This document shows, piece by piece, positions 3,768 through 55,949 of a stretch of 56,648 nucleotides of DNA (positions within the stretch are counted from its first letter, which is position 1; every line of letters begins with the position of its first letter). The stretch lies in contig CAUJCM010000002.1 in NCBI GenBank assembly GCA_963169655.1, positions 65,426 through 122,073 of the forward strand, given 5' to 3'. The position numbers and the translations under genes are program-made. Below the pieces are notes generated by a model. It was not told the origin of the DNA and did not search any database. It saw only the letters and a list, made by a program, of their open reading frames with translations. The DNA comes from Patescibacteria group bacterium. GTDB lineage: Bacteria; Patescibacteriota; Gracilibacteria; UBA1369.

Positions 3768-3788
3768 TCTTTAACTATTTAAATTAAT

Positions 3789-4004
3789 ATGGCTAAGAAT
3801 AAATATAATAAAAAATGTCCTTTTACCGCTTCTGGTGTTAAATATATTGACTATAAGGATGTTGAACTACTTAAGAAGTATGTTTCTAAATATGGAAAAA
3901 TAGTTCCTAAATATTACACTGGTGTAAGTTTGAAATATCAAAAAAAATTAGCACAAGCTATAAAAAGAGCCAGACATATGGCTTTATTAAAGTTTATCCG
4001 ATAA
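3789..4004 (+). CDS. rpsR: Small ribosomal subunit protein bS18
   Basis: A 71-residue protein with the bS18 core: [20 protein letters not shown] followed by the [15 protein letters not shown] segment and the basic helix [13 protein letters not shown]. It forms the bS6:bS18 dimer of the 30S platform, which agrees with its position just after rpsF. No rplI gene follows; a terminator hairpin lies about 30 bases downstream. Loss of bL9 is known in several Patescibacteria lineages, although whether rplI lies elsewhere cannot be told from this window. Confidence 0.95.
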
Positions 4005-8420: not shown

Positions 8421-10121
8421 TTAATTTAATTGAGATTGTTGCTGACTTGGGTCTTGACTCTGATTAAACAATGTAGCTAATTCTTGTTTATTAATGTTTT
8501 GTGGTGCTGTATTATTCTGAAACTGATTTAATTGAGATTGTTGCTGACTTGGGTCTTGACTCTGATTAAACGATGTAGCTAATTCCTGTGTATTAATGTT
8601 TTGTGGCGCTATATTATTCTGAAACTGATTTAATTGAGATTGTTGCTGACTTGGGTCTTGACTCTGATTAAACGATGTAGCTAATTCTTGTTTATTAATG
8701 TTTTGTGGCGCTGTATTATTCTGAAATATTTGATTATCAGAAAGATTATTATTAAAACTACCTTGTGTTGGGATAAAGTTTTGGTTATTAGGAACTAAAG
8801 GCTGAGTTTCTAAGTAATTCAAATTTTGAGTTGGTTGGTCTTGTTGCATATTTGGTTGTTCAGTAATCTGGCTATCAGATAGTGGCTTTTGAGTAGTTGT
8901 ATTGATTGATAAACTGCTACTAGAATCTATATTATTTGCTTGATTTTCAAACTCTTCTTTTAGCCAATTTTGCCCTAAAGAAGTGTCAATTGATTGAGGC
9001 TGGTTTCCTTGATTATTAAATGGGTTAAACTTATTACCAATATTTTCTACTTTGCTTAAAATATTAGAAAGAACTGTAGCATTAGCAGTCAAATTGCCTT
9101 TAGGAAGTTTATATTTTTCTTTTAAATTCTGTATCTGAGCTAATTCTTCTTTATATGATTTTGTAGTTTTATCAGTAAATTTATTGATTTCATCTATACG
9201 ATCATAGAATTCCGCTTCAGAATATCCTTTAACTGGACTTTCCAACTGTACTCCTTGAATATAGTATGGGTTATAAATATCAGCTTCTTCATAGGCTTTC
9301 GTTACATTTTTAAAGATCTCATTTTTAACCTTAACTATTCCAGGACCATGTGTAACTATCCAAGCTTTTATCTTAAATAAAATCCAAGTATCATCCCACT
9401 CTGTAAAATTCACAGTTGCTTTTGGCTTTTTTAAAACTTCTGGTACTGCATTAACTGCCGCTAAAGTCAATTTAACAACTTTGTCCAAATCATTTCCATA
9501 TCCCACACCTTGCTCGATTACAATTCTCCTATATTGAAAAGAGGTTCTACTAACCACTTTATTATTAATCATATCAGCATTAGGAATAATGATTTTGAAG
9601 CCATCGAAATTCTTGATGATGGTACAACGAGTCTGAATCTCAACGACTTTTCCAGTTTCTCCATTAACTTTAACTGTATCCCCTACTTCAAATGGTTTGG
9701 TGATTAATAAAATTACTCCTGCCATAAAATTTGAGGCTATATCTTTCATCGCAAAACCTAAACCAAATGCTGCAGCTGCGACTATTGGCTTGAGATCAAT
9801 CCCTATGATACTTAATGCAATTGTAATGCCCAAAACTAAAACTGAATAAAATACAATTTGACCAGAAATATTCTTTACTCCCTCATTATTAGGATTTGAT
9901 TTTAATAATTTTGACTCAACAGCTTTTCTTGCAATAAAAGCTACAACAAAGGATAAAATAACTATTAAAACCGCTAAAAACCAAAGTGGTAATGCTGATA
10001 CTATATTATTTAAAAATGAAGTTTCTTGCTCAGCTGTCTGTGTTCTGTTGTTTTGCACAAAATTACTAGCTCCTTGAGCTAAAGCTGTTGGTATCTTAAA
10101 TATTTCACTTAAATTGGTCAT
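8421..10121 (-). CDS. MscS-type mechanosensitive channel with Gln/Asn-rich repeat tail
   Basis: A 566-residue protein. Three membrane helices (about 45-65, 85-105 and 110-130) end in the pore helix AAAAFGLGFAMKDIASN, followed by the MscS beta domain (FEVGDTVKVNGETGKVVEI) and alpha/beta vestibule. From about residue 385 the chain becomes low-complexity Gln/Asn/Ser/Pro-rich, and the last 102 residues are three near-identical 34-residue repeats. E. coli MscS is 286 residues, so the tail is an addition. The channel releases solutes on hypo-osmotic shock; the tail, on the cytoplasmic side, may mediate self-association, which is inference. It converges with the glycosyltransferase gene, 19 bases apart. 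Confidence 0.9.
   Translation of the reverse strand: MTNLSEIFKIPTALAQGASNFVQNNRTQTAEQETSFLNNIVSALPLWFLAVLIVILSFVVAFIARKAVESKLLKSNPNNEGVKNISGQIVFYSVLVLGITIALSIIGIDLKPIVAAAAFGLGFAMKDIASNFMAGVILLITKPFEVGDTVKVNGETGKVVEIQTRCTIIKNFDGFKIIIPNADMINNKVVSRTSFQYRRIVIEQGVGYGNDLDKVVKLTLAAVNAVPEVLKKPKATVNFTEWDDTWILFKIKAWIVTHGPGIVKVKNEIFKNVTKAYEEADIYNPYYIQGVQLESPVKGYSEAEFYDRIDEINKFTDKTTKSYKEELAQIQNLKEKYKLPKGNLTANATVLSNILSKVENIGNKFNPFNNQGNQPQSIDTSLGQNWLKEEFENQANNIDSSSSLSINTTTQKPLSDSQITEQPNMQQDQPTQNLNYLETQPLVPNNQNFIPTQGSFNNNLSDNQIFQNNTAPQNINKQELATSFNQSQDPSQQQSQLNQFQNNIAPQNINTQELATSFNQSQDPSQQQSQLNQFQNNTAPQNINKQELATLFNQSQDPSQQQSQLN
8424..8729 (-). repeat. Three 102-bp tandem repeats coding for the MscS tail
   Basis: Three consecutive 102-base units (starting 8424, 8526 and 8628) differing at only a few bases. 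Each encodes 34 residues, including NINKQELATSFNQSQ and DPSQQQSQLNQ. Confidence 0.95.
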
Positions 10122-11073: not shown

Positions 11074-11157
11074 GTCAGCCTTTGGCTAACACTACTTCAA
11101 AAGGGGAAATCCACCCCATCAGCCTTCGGCTAACACCACCTCAAGAGGGGGAGAATT
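11074..11157 (+). repeat. Degenerate pair of palindromic repeat units (family R1)
   Basis: Two units of the family also found at 48066-48107, 48181-48270 and 53832-53931. The first has AGCCTTTGGCT and CTTCAAAAGGGG; the second has CCACCCC, AGCCTTCGGCT and CCTCAAGAGGGGG. They lie between the slipin terminator and the end of the next, opposite-strand gene. Confidence 0.75.
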
Positions 11158-45607: not shown

Positions 45608-45637
45608 TGAGTTGAAAAAGGTATTTAAATTTAGTTT

Positions 45638-45841: not shown

Positions 45842-46252
45842 TTAAATAACATTTTTAATATAATAGTCTTTCTGTTTTTTATCAAATGTTTCAAAAATAT
45901 CTATTTTTAAATATTTGCAGTAGATAAGGATATATAAGTCTTGAGAACGGATATTTCCTATTTTAAGAATTTCAGCAATTGATTTTGTCATGTAATAATT
46001 ATTAATTGTACTCATTATTATATTTTCATTTTTAAAGGTTTCTCTTAAAAAACCATTTATATTATGAAAGCTTCCATTTTTTCGATATAAAACATTAATT
46101 ACCTCCACAAGAACCGGTTGAGGTACGATAATTTGGTACTCGTGACTCAGATATTTTTCAAAAATTTTATCAGCTTTTTTATGATTCACATCCTCCTTTA
46201 GGATAGATGAAAGCCAAATGGATGAGTCTAATAGTACTTTTTTAATTGCCAT
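45842..46252 (-). CDS. PIN-domain ribonuclease-like protein (putative toxin 1)
   Basis: A 136-residue PIN domain. The four acidic residues of the active site are present: D9 in LLDSSIWL, E50 in VLVEVINVLYR, D105 in IRSQDLYILIYC, and D124 in FETFDKKQ. VapC-type PIN toxins cut tRNA or rRNA. The leader upstream is a near copy of that of the second PIN gene at 47319-47759, although the proteins share only motif-level similarity. The small Lys-rich gene follows, so the toxin comes first, unlike classic vapBC. Confidence 0.85.
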   Translation of the reverse strand: MAIKKVLLDSSIWLSSILKEDVNHKKADKIFEKYLSHEYQIIVPQPVLVEVINVLYRKNGSFHNINGFLRETFKNENIIMSTINNYYMTKSIAEILKIGNIRSQDLYILIYCKYLKIDIFETFDKKQKDYYIKNVI

Positions 46253-46348
46253 ATTCTTAACTGTTGATCAGTTAAATTGAATTTAGCAAAAAGGTTTAAA
46301 TTAAAGATTAAAAATTAGTAAATTTTTTCTCTTCACACTCTGTGTGGG
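46253..46348 (-). promoter_or_regulatory. Duplicated leader of PIN gene 1 with palindrome
   Basis: Nearly identical to 47760-47856 (only a few base differences). It contains the inverted repeat TAACTG-TTGAT-CAGTTA (46258-46274), which ends five bases before the start codon, then A/T-rich promoter-like DNA and CACACTCTGTGTGG. Confidence 0.8.
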
Positions 46349-46386: not shown

Positions 46387-46605
46387 TTACCCCCTAATTT
46401 TCTTTAACATCTTTAAAACATCGACTTTTTTACCTGAATCTAAAGTATTTTCTCTCATCCATTTAAGTAAATCGAAGTTTGGGTCTTTTTTGACCTTTCT
46501 TAATTCTACGAAAAACTTTTTGCTGTCTTTAGCTACTTTCTCTCTTTCTAAAAGAATTTCTGTTCTAGTTTTAGCTTTTGTCTTTTTTGCAATAGTTTTT
46601 TTCAT
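46387..46605 (-). CDS. Small Lys-rich protein, putative antitoxin B (third in array)
   Basis: A 72-residue protein, longer than its paralogues at the N-terminus (KTRTEILLEREKVAKDSKKF). The rest aligns well: KKDPNFDLLKWMRENTLDSG, then GKKVDVLKMLKKIRG. It begins three bases after the preceding paralogue ends. The divergence of the tail (Met and Ile for Ile and Val) shows it is the oldest copy of the array. Confidence 0.7.
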   Translation of the reverse strand: MKKTIAKKTKAKTRTEILLEREKVAKDSKKFFVELRKVKKDPNFDLLKWMRENTLDSGKKVDVLKMLKKIRG

Positions 46606-46608
46606 AGT

Positions 46609-46800
46609 TTACCCTCTAACTTTCTTTAATATCTTTAAAACATCAACTTTCTTACCAGTTACAAAAGCATTCTCTCGAATCCATTTTGGAAAATTAAAAT
46701 TTGGGTCTTTTTTTAAAGTTTCAATATTAAATGTAGGATATTTTATTTCCTTCTTTTTGGCTACTTTCTTTGAAGTCCCTTTTGTAACTGTTTTTTTCAT
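46609..46800 (-). CDS. Small Lys-rich protein, putative antitoxin C (second in array)
   Basis: A 63-residue protein. The first 31 residues are almost identical to the next paralogue upstream (MKKTVTKGTSKKVAKKKEIK against the same with Thr at 15), the middle differs (DPNFNFPKWIREN), and the tail VTGKKVDVLKILKKVRG is identical. Three-base gaps separate it from both neighbours, so the row of genes is translated as one unit. Confidence 0.7.
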   Translation of the reverse strand: MKKTVTKGTSKKVAKKKEIKYPTFNIETLKKDPNFNFPKWIRENAFVTGKKVDVLKILKKVRG

Positions 46801-46803
46801 AGT

Positions 46804-46995
46804 TTACCCTCTAACTTTCTTTAAAATTTTTAAAACATCAACTTTCTTACCAGTAACAATTGCATTTTTGTCCATCCACTTAAGCAAACTAGAAGTTTTA
46901 TTCTTTTTTAAAGTATCAATATTAAAAGTAGGATACTTTATTTCCTTCTTTGTGGCTACTTTCTTTGAAGTCCCTTTTGTAACTGTTTTTTTCAT
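46804..46995 (-). CDS. Small Lys-rich protein, putative antitoxin D (first in array)
   Basis: A 63-residue protein. N-terminus and tail match paralogue C nearly base for base, while residues of about 32-45 (NKTSSLLKWMDKN) differ. It follows the 100-residue gene at 47020-47322 with 24 bases between, and its pre-start bases match those of paralogue A. The local difference within otherwise identical sequence suggests selection or recombination on the middle part. Confidence 0.7.
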   Translation of the reverse strand: MKKTVTKGTSKKVATKKEIKYPTFNIDTLKKNKTSSLLKWMDKNAIVTGKKVDVLKILKKVRG

Positions 46996-47019
46996 AGTTA
47001 TTGAGTTTAAATGACATTT

Positions 47020-47322: not shown

Positions 47323-47759
47323 GTTTTTAAGTTTAGATTATTGATATTTTTGCCTGCAATACTTAGTTTTTCATCATAGCTAGTCAATATATCCGTCTCT
47401 AATTTAGTATAATAGCAGAAGATTAAATAGTCCATTGTTTTCAAGCTAGCTTTAGAGAGGTTGGATTCAAAATTTGGGTATAGTTGATCAATTGAAAACT
47501 CAATTAATTGAAATTTATTTTGATGTTTTTTTAAGAAAGAGTGAAAAGTTTTGATTAATTCTAGAGAATTGGTTTTACGAAATAGCACATTGATAACTTC
47601 ATAAAAAACTATAGCTGGGACATAAATCAAATAGTTTTGTTTCATAAGTTTTCCAACTAATTTAAGTGCATCAAAATGGAAGATATCTTGTTGTAAGTGG
47701 TAAGAAATCCAAACGCTAGAATCGAGGAGAGCGGATTTTTTATCTTTTTTAATTGCCAT
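47319..47759 (-). CDS. PIN-domain ribonuclease-like protein (putative toxin 2)
   Basis: A 146-residue PIN domain. The active-site acids are D13 in LLDSSVWIS, E54 in VFYEVINVLFR, D110 in LKTMDYLIFCYY and D129 in LTSYDEKL, with the same spacing as in PIN 1. The start MAIKK and the EVINVL-RK segment are shared by the two; the rest has diverged. The gene is first in its operon. It ends in TGA overlapping the ATG of the next gene. Confidence 0.85.
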   Translation of the reverse strand: MAIKKDKKSALLDSSVWISYHLQQDIFHFDALKLVGKLMKQNYLIYVPAIVFYEVINVLFRKTNSLELIKTFHSFLKKHQNKFQLIEFSIDQLYPNFESNLSKASLKTMDYLIFCYYTKLETDILTSYDEKLSIAGKNINNLNLKT

Positions 47760-47856
47760 ATTCTTAACTGTTGATCAGTTAAATTGAAATTAGCAAAAAG
47801 GTTTAAATTAAAGATTAAAAATTAGTAAATTTTTTTCTCTTTACACTCCGTGTGGG
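47760..47856 (-). promoter_or_regulatory. Duplicated leader of PIN gene 2 with palindrome
   Basis: The second copy of the 97-base leader, with TAACTG-TTGAT-CAGTTA at 47765-47781, five bases before the start codon. Part of the 637-base gap to the S-layer gene. That gap also holds the hairpin GGGGCTAAAGCCCC (about 47883-47896), repeat units and the S-layer terminator, but no gene. Confidence 0.8.
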
Positions 47857-48065
47857 GTGTTGTTCGCCGCGCGTGTGGGAACGGGGCTAAAGCCCCTCTA
47901 GACCCCTATTTTTCCTTTTTTACTCTATTCTGTATCTATTCAATACTTATTTAATTCTTTTCAACAAAGGTATATAAACTGTTTTTGTATATATTTTCCT
48001 TTATTCTTTATCCTCTTTTTTTATCCGGTTGTATCTTTACTAAATTCTCATTGCTAATGATTTAG

Positions 48066-48107
48066 CCACCCCGCCAGCCTACGGCTGCCACCCCTCAAGA
48101 GGGGAAT
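48066..48107 (-). repeat. Palindromic repeat unit (family R1)
   Basis: CCACCCC followed by CAGCC-TAC-GGCTG and CCCCTCAAGAGGGG. A related AGCTAAAGCT hairpin follows directly. Confidence 0.85.
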
Positions 48108-48180
48108 TAGTGCGCCGGAGCTAAAGCTATGTCACCCATTCTTGGATAGATAAACTTTTTTGTAATTTCTAAAGATGTCC

Positions 48181-48270
48181 ATCCCCGTCAAATCCGAAGG
48201 ATTTGCCACCCCTCAGAAGGGGAGGGTCCACCCCGGTGGTCTTCGACTGCCACCCCTCAAGAGGGGAATT
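48181..48270 (-). repeat. Two palindromic repeat units (family R1)
   Basis: Unit one: CAAATCC-GAA-GGATTTG, then CCCCTCAGAAGGGG. Unit two: CCACCCC, GTGGTC-TTC-GACTGCC, then CCCCTCAAGAGGGG. They end nine bases before the S-layer terminator. Confidence 0.88.
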
Positions 48271-53381: not shown

Positions 53382-55949
53382 TTAAGTAATCAAAAAGGAA
53401 ATTTGATTAGTAGAAATTAATTTTTGTTCTGCAGAAAAAATTTCAATTTTTAAAGTATGATTACCCGTGATTGGAATCCATTTTTCTTTTATTTCAAGCG
53501 GGTTTTGATTTTTTATGGTAAATTCCTTAAAAGGTTTTTGATCAAGAGAAATTTTGACTAGTTGAGCATCTGAATTGAATAATTGAGGGTGAATAATCAT
53601 TTTGAAAGTTATTTTTTGATTTTCCAATGGAATTTCTGGGATTATTTGGAAAGTATCATTATTTAATGGGGAGATAAATTGGATGGGTTGTATTACTTGG
53701 TTTTGGCTTGATTGTTTGGAATTTAAGCTATTTACAGGCTTACAATCTCTTGGGGGTTGGAAATTTCTTTCTTCTGCCCAATTTTGATATGGGTATGGGT
53801 AGGAGATGAAGTATTTGGAGGTTGTTGAGGAGTCCACCCCGAGAGCCTCTGGCTGCCACCTCTCAAGAGGGGAATTGTCCACCCCGTCAAATCCTTCGGA
53901 TTTGCCACCCCTCAAGAGGGGAAGGTCTGCTCCATTATCTGGATCGCAATTAAACTCCTGCCAAAAATAATCATACTTTTTTGGCTCTGTACCTTTTAAA
54001 AAATACTGTAAAACTTGTGATTGGCAATTTTTAGTTGGAAGTAAACCAGAAATTGCACAAATAGAAATTTGAGTAATATTTTCAGGAATAATAAAATCTT
54101 TATTTTGTCGATTTAGCTGATATTTATCAAAATAAAGCATAAAATCATGCCAAATTGGCCCTGCTCCATCAATCCCAGAAATTTCTTGCATAGCTGAAGC
54201 ATCACTATTTCCAACCCAAACTGCTGTTAAAATATTCCTGGAAAAACCGAAAGTCCAATTATCTTTAAAAGACCTTGTAGTCCCTGTTTTTGCTACAACT
54301 GGGAAAGGTAAATTTAAAACATTATCTTCACCAAAACTTTTAAGCCTAGCATTATTATCACTTAAAGCATCAATAATTAAAAAAGCATATTGTTTGGCAT
54401 TTTGACCAAAAATATTGTGAGAAGGCGGATTCGACCAGTTAATAATAGTTTTATTTTGGCTATCAGTAATTTTTAAAATTGTAGAAAAGCTTTTTTGATT
54501 GCCATAATTAGATAAAGTGAAATAAGCATTTGCTAAATCTAGAAGCCTAATCTCCCCTCCTCCAAGAGTTAATGAATATCCATAAAAATCTGGATCTTGA
54601 TTTAATGTGGTTAAGCCTAATTGCCTTAAAAAAGCTAAAAAGGTATCAGTTCCAAGCTGTTGTTGAAGTCTAACAGCAGGAATATTAAATGAATTAGCTA
54701 AAGCTTCTTTCATCCTTACGGGCCCATGAAAATCTAAATCATAATTTAGTGGCGAATAAATTCCTGTATCTGTTTTCAAACTTAAAGGTAAATCCTCTAA
54801 AATATCAGCCATTGTATGACCTTTTTGCAAAGCTAATAAATATAAAAATGGCTTTAAAGCAGATCCTGGTTGTCTTTGAGAAGCAATAATATCCACTTGT
54901 CCTGAAACACTTGGATCAAAATAATCTTTACTTCCAAGCCAAACTAAGACTTGTCCACTAGGTAAATCGACAGCCAAAACTGCAGAATTTGTAACATTTT
55001 TTTCTTTTAATTTGTCCAATTGGAAATTAACAATTTCTTGGGCTTTATTTTGTAAATTCAAATCTAAAGTTGTGGTGATATTTAAGCCACTGTAAAGATA
55101 ATCAGGTCCGTATTCTTCTTCTAATTGATTTAAAATATAATGGACAAAATGAGGAGCTTGAATCGGATTTTTAACTGTTTTAAAAACTAAAATTTCCTCT
55201 TCAGCTTGCTCTTTTTCAGATTGGGTAATTAATTTTTGTTCTAGCATTTTTGCTAAAATATAGCTTTGTCTTTTTTTTGCAGCTTGGAGGTTGATTAAAG
55301 GATTTAGTGAGGAAGGAGATTGAGGAAGTCCAGCTAAAATAGTCATTTCTGCTAAATCTAGATTTTGAATATTTTTGCCAAAATAATTTTGTGATGCTTC
55401 ATAAATTCCATAAGATAAATTGCCAAAATAAACAGTATTTAAATATTTTTCTAAAACTTGATCTTTTGTGTACAAATGGCTGATGCGAATTGCATAAATT
55501 GCTTCAATTAATTTTTCTTTTAAAGTCCGTTGACGATTAGTACCAAGTAAATTTCTAACTAATTGTTGAGTGATTGTAGATGCGCCGCTAGTAATTTTTT
55601 GATTTAAAGCATTATAGAAAAGGGCACGAGAAATAGCTTGCAAATCAATACCTTGATGTTCAAAAAAATCTTTATCTTCAGCAGAAATAATAGCTTGAAT
55701 AAATTTTGGTGGAATTTGATCTAAATTTACATAAGTTTTTTTACCAGATTTTGGGTCAAGGACTTGATAAAGTAGTGTGCCATTTCGATCGTAAATTTTG
55801 GTAGAAATATGTTGATTTTGGAGATGTAAATCGTCTGGAATTTCAAGGAAGTAGGCGATAAAGATGTAGGAAAAAATGAGAATTAAAAAAAAGCTTATAA
55901 GGAGGGGTAAGATTATTTTCCAAATAAGACTTTTTATTTTCTTGGGCAT
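53382..55949 (-). CDS. pbpC: Class A penicillin-binding protein, PbpC-like, with in-frame repeat insertion
   Basis: An 855-residue bifunctional cell-wall synthase. One N-terminal membrane helix (about 10-35), then a GT51 glycosyltransferase (EDKDFFEHQGID, GASTITQQLVRN) and a transpeptidase with SxxK in PGSALKPF (about 360), SFN in ANSFNIPAV, and KTG in VAKTGTTRSF (about 555). The C-terminal domain after about 740 (FISPLNNDTFQIIPEIPLEN) resembles the BiPBP_C domain of PbpC, and ICAISGLLPTKNC fits this as well. Between them, residues of about 673-706 (GFDGVDNSPLERWQPEALGV) are encoded by the palindromic repeats at 53832-53931. Confidence 0.92.
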   Translation of the reverse strand: MPKKIKSLIWKIILPLLISFFLILIFSYIFIAYFLEIPDDLHLQNQHISTKIYDRNGTLLYQVLDPKSGKKTYVNLDQIPPKFIQAIISAEDKDFFEHQGIDLQAISRALFYNALNQKITSGASTITQQLVRNLLGTNRQRTLKEKLIEAIYAIRISHLYTKDQVLEKYLNTVYFGNLSYGIYEASQNYFGKNIQNLDLAEMTILAGLPQSPSSLNPLINLQAAKKRQSYILAKMLEQKLITQSEKEQAEEEILVFKTVKNPIQAPHFVHYILNQLEEEYGPDYLYSGLNITTTLDLNLQNKAQEIVNFQLDKLKEKNVTNSAVLAVDLPSGQVLVWLGSKDYFDPSVSGQVDIIASQRQPGSALKPFLYLLALQKGHTMADILEDLPLSLKTDTGIYSPLNYDLDFHGPVRMKEALANSFNIPAVRLQQQLGTDTFLAFLRQLGLTTLNQDPDFYGYSLTLGGGEIRLLDLANAYFTLSNYGNQKSFSTILKITDSQNKTIINWSNPPSHNIFGQNAKQYAFLIIDALSDNNARLKSFGEDNVLNLPFPVVAKTGTTRSFKDNWTFGFSRNILTAVWVGNSDASAMQEISGIDGAGPIWHDFMLYFDKYQLNRQNKDFIIPENITQISICAISGLLPTKNCQSQVLQYFLKGTEPKKYDYFWQEFNCDPDNGADLPLLRGGKSEGFDGVDNSPLERWQPEALGVDSSTTSKYFISYPYPYQNWAEERNFQPPRDCKPVNSLNSKQSSQNQVIQPIQFISPLNNDTFQIIPEIPLENQKITFKMIIHPQLFNSDAQLVKISLDQKPFKEFTIKNQNPLEIKEKWIPITGNHTLKIEIFSAEQKLISTNQISFLIT
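53832..53931 (-). repeat. Two palindromic repeat units (family R1) inside pbpC
   Basis: Unit one: GTCCACCCC, AGAGCC-TCT-GGCTGCC, then CCTCTCAAGAGGGG. Unit two: GTCCACCCC, CAAATCC-TTC-GGATTTG, then CCCCTCAAGAGGGG. Both are read through without stop. They are more than 50% G+C in a gene of about 33%. Confidence 0.92.

Follow-up and report, generated by a model that had tools for sequence, protein, structure and literature searches.

The window (the whole 56,648-nt stretch of a Patescibacteria genome analysed here) carries pbpC, an open gene for penicillin-binding protein 1C whose product scores 516 bits against TIGR02073 (PBP_1c), above the curated cut-off of 494. Two repeat units lie in frame within this gene (Table 1), the second head to tail with the first after a gap of 1 nt. 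This bears out an earlier note, made from the letters of the sequence, that two units sit in pbpC without breaking its frame, although the in-frame extension comes to exactly 31 codons and not to the roughly 33 residues given there. The insert translates as (D)LPLLRGGKSEGFDGVDNSPLERWQPEALGV(D), residues ~675-706 of the 855-aa frame, with the reading frame falling differently on each of the two units.

Table 1. pbpC, its insert and related repeat units in the window
Feature	Position	Strand	Basis
pbpC, penicillin-binding protein 1C, 855 aa, open, uninterrupted	53382..55949	(-)	ORF; TIGR02073; Transgly 59-235; Transpeptidase 323-567
Unit 1, short (AGCC) stem type, TCCACCCCGAGAGCCTCTGGCTGCCACCTCTCAAGAGGGGAATT, antisense to pbpC	53833..53876	(+)	R1 58.9 bits, E 1.7e-16
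Unit 2, long (AAATCC) stem type, TCCACCCCGTCAAATCCTTCGGATTTGCCACCCCTCAAGAGGGGAAGG	53878..53925	(+)	R1 63 bits, E 9e-18
Whole insert in pbpC, 93 nt = 31 codons	53833..53925	(-)	Frame analysis; orthologues without insert
Intergenic unit, same family as pbpC units	48065..48108	(+)	R1 62.7 bits
Intergenic unit, long stem type, joined directly to next unit	48179..48226	(+)	R1 43.2 bits
Intergenic unit of short stem type, following the 48179..48226 unit head to tail	48227..48270	(+)	R1 58.1 bits
Intergenic unit, more diverged	11110..11154	(+)	R1 46.1 bits

Given that the transpeptidase match ends at residue 567 and the PBP_1c match at residue 666, and that a weak, sub-threshold BiPBP_C match lies at 749-785, the insert is interdomain, as had been proposed. 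The possibility that the segment is common to all homologues does not hold: in an alignment with pbpC orthologues from the same family and order, which pair with the gene on both sides of the insertion site, the 31-codon segment is missing from every sampled orthologue, and the linker between FWQ and YP is 52 residues long here versus 14 to ~25 in the orthologues. The insertion is therefore younger than the split from the nearest sampled genera and, since the closest orthologues are 51-62% identical, it is lineage-specific at the resolution of our sampling. In an AlphaFold2 model of PBP 1C (from a shallow six-sequence alignment, mean pLDDT 67) residues 672-725, which cover the insert, have a pLDDT below 50, and the C-terminal beta domain is better defined. 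The suggestion that the insert is tolerated in a linker agrees with this low-confidence interdomain stretch; that it is neutral is something we infer. The frame of pbpC has stayed open because the unit pair is open in three of three frames on the unit strand and, on the gene strand, in one of three, which is the frame used. No special coding adaptation is needed to account for the insert, as selection against disrupted genes suffices.

Could the insert be functional, that is, kept because a longer linker or RNA hairpins tune PBP 1C? The intact frame and a C-terminal region still alignable with orthologues would be in keeping with this, but the units are read in two different frames, their sequence is what would be expected of the repeat, and the region is predicted with low confidence, like a loose linker. 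The insert is known from a single lineage, and we regard such a role as very improbable. We give almost no credence to an assembly chimaera at the repeat: repeats do generally cause misassembly and some contig ends lie near units, but the sequences flanking the insert match one and the same orthologous protein, in frame and over its length, and each of the two pbpC units has letters of its own. The presence of the two units, in frame, in an interdomain linker of pbpC is confirmed, and the segment is best read as an inserted pair of REP-like palindromic mobile repeats.

The units belong to a family dispersed through this genome. Each is 44-48 nt long and consists of TCCACCCCGTC, a variable hairpin, a second hairpin with an all-pyrimidine 5' arm (CCCCTCAAGAGGGG) and AA. 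Stems are 5 or 7 bp and loops 3 nt, and most units read CGTC-stem-loop-stem-CCA or ACA, with the last C of the tag paired within the stem. The core CCACCCCTCAAGAGGGG, allowing up to 3 mismatches, occurs six times in the window and in none of 100 dinucleotide shuffles; across the genome the core pattern was found 36 times versus 0 for a reversed-pattern control. A covariance model of the two hairpins (R1, built from 31 units) detected ~47 units at E<=0.1 in the 1.02-Mb genome. Stem 1 covaries (30 cells changed on both sides versus 10.6 in shuffles), and the signal was lost when the partner was slid. Outside this genome the family is scarcely to be seen: in 58 relatives R1 gave two matches only, at E ~0.01, and no credible copy, and the core pattern was absent from these 58 and from 286 other members of the phylum. 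No Rfam match was obtained in the window at E<=1, which disposes of a known RNA family. We found no units on plasmids or annotated phages; three viral contigs gave matches, one of which, from a viral collection (L103), has two units of like architecture at 3773-3810 and 3932-3969 (CCACCCCGGCTTTCAGCCACCCCTCAAGAGGGG, 40.8 and 33 bits).

The units are grouped in 28 clusters. Where two units neighbour each other within 40 nt (16 pairs), the arrangement is always head to tail. Most joined neighbours differ in stem type (AGCC versus AAATYC), and for this reason local slippage is disfavoured as the origin of joined units. Nearly all units are intergenic or lie over short unsupported ORFs (those at C1:28650 and C1:134141, for example, are without Pfam support); the exceptions are pbpC and the 5' end of an ORF encoding a DUF559 protein. 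By eye, the intergenic units showed no obvious preference among gaps flanked by divergent, convergent or co-directional ORFs. It had been claimed that the repeats still move in this lineage, and of this the unit sequences give no sign: full-length units are on average 78% (44-nt class) or 87% (48-nt class) identical and none are identical within a class, so that the amplification may be old. The two pbpC units stand ~5 and 2 positions from their nearest relatives, that of unit 2 being the unit at C6:49378 of the same genome (2 mismatches).

Some longer repeats were seen in the same genome (G000). They reach past units at C2:113490, C4:278846, C3:143057, C3:146257 and C6:1209, and include CTCCGGAGCTAAAGCTATGTCGCCCATTCTTGGATAGATAAAC and a stretch of ~160 nt, 86-94% shared. 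Segments of ~380-440 nt with 81-86% similarity lie beside units at the start of C2 and near the end of C5, and likewise at the end of C4 and the start of C6; from their position at contig ends, the repeats may have limited the assembly. The window itself also holds a 195-nt tandem repeat at 46580-46999 with diverged copies nearby at 45609 and 46358, a 102-nt tandem repeat at 8424-8729 (three copies, 95-100% identity, a length that is a multiple of three) and a 92-nt sequence present twice, at 46237-46328 and 47744-47835, with 99% identity.

With regard to what mobilises the family, genes for Y1_Tnp (PF01797) and IS605 OrfB are both lacking from this 98.7% complete genome. Y1_Tnp genes do occur in 19 of the 59 genomes searched, three others of the same family among them, but ten Y1 loci of relatives are without end hairpins of the kind described here. 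We have therefore set aside a RAYT/IS200 transposase or IS605 OrfB as the mobiliser, and this genome has no RAYT or Y1 transposase of its own that could serve the repeat family.

The best candidate is the single DUF559 gene of the genome (C3:60845 to ~61210, minus strand; PF04480, E 1.6e-27). It is flanked by two units of the family, at C3:60781-60824 (minus) and 61266-61313 (plus), which lie ~20 nt past its stop and ~59 nt before the start of the domain. The two are inverted with tails outward, whereas the units in pbpC are direct. That an intact DUF559 gene is bracketed by units of the family makes mobility plausible; the pbpC copy gives no such support. The DUF559 profile matches PDB 3hrl (an endonuclease-like protein, 2e-36) and PDB 3r3p (a mobile intron protein, 3.4e-5), the latter of which we take to be I-Bth0305I. 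Across 16 DUF559 proteins E17, R37-Q38, D47, E58, D60, H64 and D71 are invariant, and all are kept in the copy of this genome. On these sequence comparisons, DUF559 is predicted to be a Vsr/EDxHD-type nuclease related to the 3r3p protein.

The link between DUF559 and the hairpins was noticed post hoc in this genome, and the controlled test was made on others. DUF559 is present in 73 of 380 sampled Patescibacteria genomes, and for the test we used the surroundings of DUF559 genes in other Patescibacteria (20 stretches, each 12-19 kb), in which the ORF filter kept only 18 DUF559 ORFs. The hairpins tested have an all-pyrimidine 5' arm, for example CCCTCTCC..GGAGAGGG and similar. Bracketing on both sides within 150 nt was found for 15 of the 18 DUF559 genes. 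Among the 320 other ORFs of these stretches it was seen for 6, which all come from a single hairpin-rich stretch. The Fisher p of 9e-19 is to be read as indicative, since the hairpin class was defined after some of the tested loci had been viewed. Furthermore, we found that: (i) of 41 Patescibacteria DUF559 loci, including the bracketed one of this genome, 27 are flanked by such hairpins on both sides, 8 have them on a single side and 6 have none; (ii) among these six, which lack a strict hairpin in the 200 nt to either side, three are cut by contig ends and most show looser C/T-rich inverted repeats by eye; (iii) pyrimidine-armed hairpins around DUF559 genes number 86 in 365 kb, versus 5 for the mirror motif and 4 in shuffled sequence; (iv) they number 0 in 124 kb of the relatives' pbp loci; and (v) 0 of 10 Y1_Tnp loci are bracketed by them. 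In statistical terms, then, the association of DUF559 with the hairpins is established.

The association extends to other phyla. Of 15 DUF559 loci on plasmids from Cyanobacteria, Alpha- and Gammaproteobacteria and Deinococcota, none lacks a hairpin within 300 nt, and 9 are flanked on both sides. At one of the loci examined (L247, Sphingomonas parapaucimobilis) DUF559 lies between sufB and sufC with the perfect inverted hairpins CCCCTCCCCTTCAGGGGAGGGG / CCCCTCCCCTGAAGGGGAGGGG, and on three Deinococcus plasmids (L249, L250 and L258) it occupies different gaps of one and the same hpaB-hpaE cluster, as if it had hopped locally. Outside the DUF559 locus the hairpins are few in two closed genomes (3 versus 3 for the mirror motif in 380 kb of G218; 8 versus 1 in 342 kb of G232), which indicates that bracketing without dispersal is possible, and a genome without DUF559 has a single hairpin in 380 kb. 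Bracketing of DUF559 is thus the general rule; wide dispersal, as in this genome, is not. In a literature search of openly accessible journal papers, none of the 14 that mention DUF559 names it in title or abstract, and among the papers listed for DUF559 together with repeats we found none that links the two.

GC-rich hairpins beside genes are a usual feature of terminators, and the hairpins at DUF559 might serve a gene that moves horizontally as bidirectional terminators or insulators, with the dispersed units acting as terminators as well and the pbpC pair a misplaced instance. We think this improbable given that the hairpins stand both upstream and downstream of DUF559, that their 5' arms are all-pyrimidine, that the dispersed units favor no type of gap, convergent ones included, and that a pair within an intact pbpC is unlike a terminator.

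DUF559 has itself been found in frame inside enzymes, namely within EPSP synthase (aroA; L175, G027 C16), where the Pfam domain is split into two stretches, within an Elp3-type radical SAM protein (L173, G102 C4) and, on a cyanobacterial plasmid, within an Eco57I-type methylase (L246, NZ_CP112876.1). In L175 and L246 strict hairpins are read in the same open frame. On this reading, the pbpC insert is a short version of an in-frame insertion that the whole DUF559 gene has also undergone.

We favor, as the probable account of the whole, a REP-like two-unit insertion into pbpC by repeats that represent non-autonomous ends of DUF559 elements. In this working model DUF559 genes with pyrimidine-armed hairpin ends would be mobile elements, and the dispersed units would be their solo or joined ends. 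The nuclease may cut at the hairpins, close to them or at targets, and repair after the cut could copy units to new sites; mobilisation, cutting and copying are steps that we infer. One joined pair would have entered pbpC within the lineage, presumably in a single event, and would owe its retention to a length of 93 nt, to being open in the frame used and to its place in a flexible interdomain linker, where it may be neutral. More broadly, but only tentatively and with somewhat less than an even expectation of being right, we propose that DUF559 nucleases drive mobile elements of a widespread, unrecognised class that occurs in several bacterial phyla, with pyrimidine-armed hairpin ends, REP-like spread of the non-autonomous ends in some genomes, and elements as well as solo units able to settle in frame within conserved genes.

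In-frame repeat insertions, known from Rickettsia and REP-rich genomes, now also have an instance in a streamlined Patescibacteria genome. DUF559 offers a testable candidate mobiliser for palindromic repeats without a RAYT and, if the proposal is true, would be the enzyme serving one large class of them. As the family is abundant, a recognisable class of bracketing hairpins supplies both a clear hypothesis and substrates for assays.

There is precedent for repeats of this kind within genes. Rickettsia palindromic elements such as RPE-1, RPE-4 and RPE-6 are likewise short, palindromic, dispersed and tolerated in frame in conserved genes (PMC2229807, PMC3733652), and RPEs and intragenic REP dimers encode 20-30 residues and are believed to be accommodated in linkers or loops (PMC3733652, PMC2229807). 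The parallel with Rickettsia drawn in the earlier note is a good one for how the repeat works, yet the repeat is no RPE-1. It is set apart by unit length, as judged from descriptions of RPEs: these give 105-146 nt and long stem-loops, whereas units here are 44-48 nt with two short hairpins of 5-7 bp stems. Moreover, RPEs sit in many genes, whereas here pbpC is the only well-supported gene affected, besides the 5' end of the DUF559 ORF.

REPs and REPINs with RAYT (TnpA-REP) share with our family palindromes of 20-50 nt, an intergenic bias and, as in the REPtron, a gene with flanking units. CGTC REPs, for which no dedicated transposase is known and which have intragenic members, share the CGTC start and the CCA after the first hairpin in most units. 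These likenesses leave room for an ordinary REP- or RPE-type repeat whose former mobiliser, a RAYT/IS200-type transposase, has been lost, with DUF559 a bystander inserted among the repeats, as REPs and RPEs alike occur within genes, with dimers of 20-30 residues (PMC3733652), CCA or ACA follows the first hairpin, and Y1_Tnp persists in other genomes, some of the same family. We nevertheless consider it unlikely. The GTAG tag of REPs with RAYT is absent from the unit consensus, the bracketed gene encodes a DUF559 nuclease in a genome without a Y1 transposase, and REP/iREP dimers there are inverted, whereas every adjacent pair here is head to tail. CGTC REPs have stems of 8-9 bp, loops of 4-5 nt and mainly head-to-head dimers (PMC3733652), in contrast to the stems, loops and orientation found here, and our units additionally contain the second, pyrimidine-armed hairpin. 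A bystander would also leave the bracketing of DUF559 across many genomes unexplained, and such hairpins are not found at the Y1_Tnp loci. By its unit, its orientation and the lack of RAYT/Y1, the family works like RPEs or REPs and belongs to neither.

Returning to DUF559 as the candidate mobiliser, the nearest comparison is with the EDxHD family of homing nucleases typified by I-Bth0305I (PMC3943268). There, likewise, a nuclease gene may drive the spread of DNA linked to it; here no group I intron or intein is seen, and DUF559 is instead a single small domain bracketed by hairpins.
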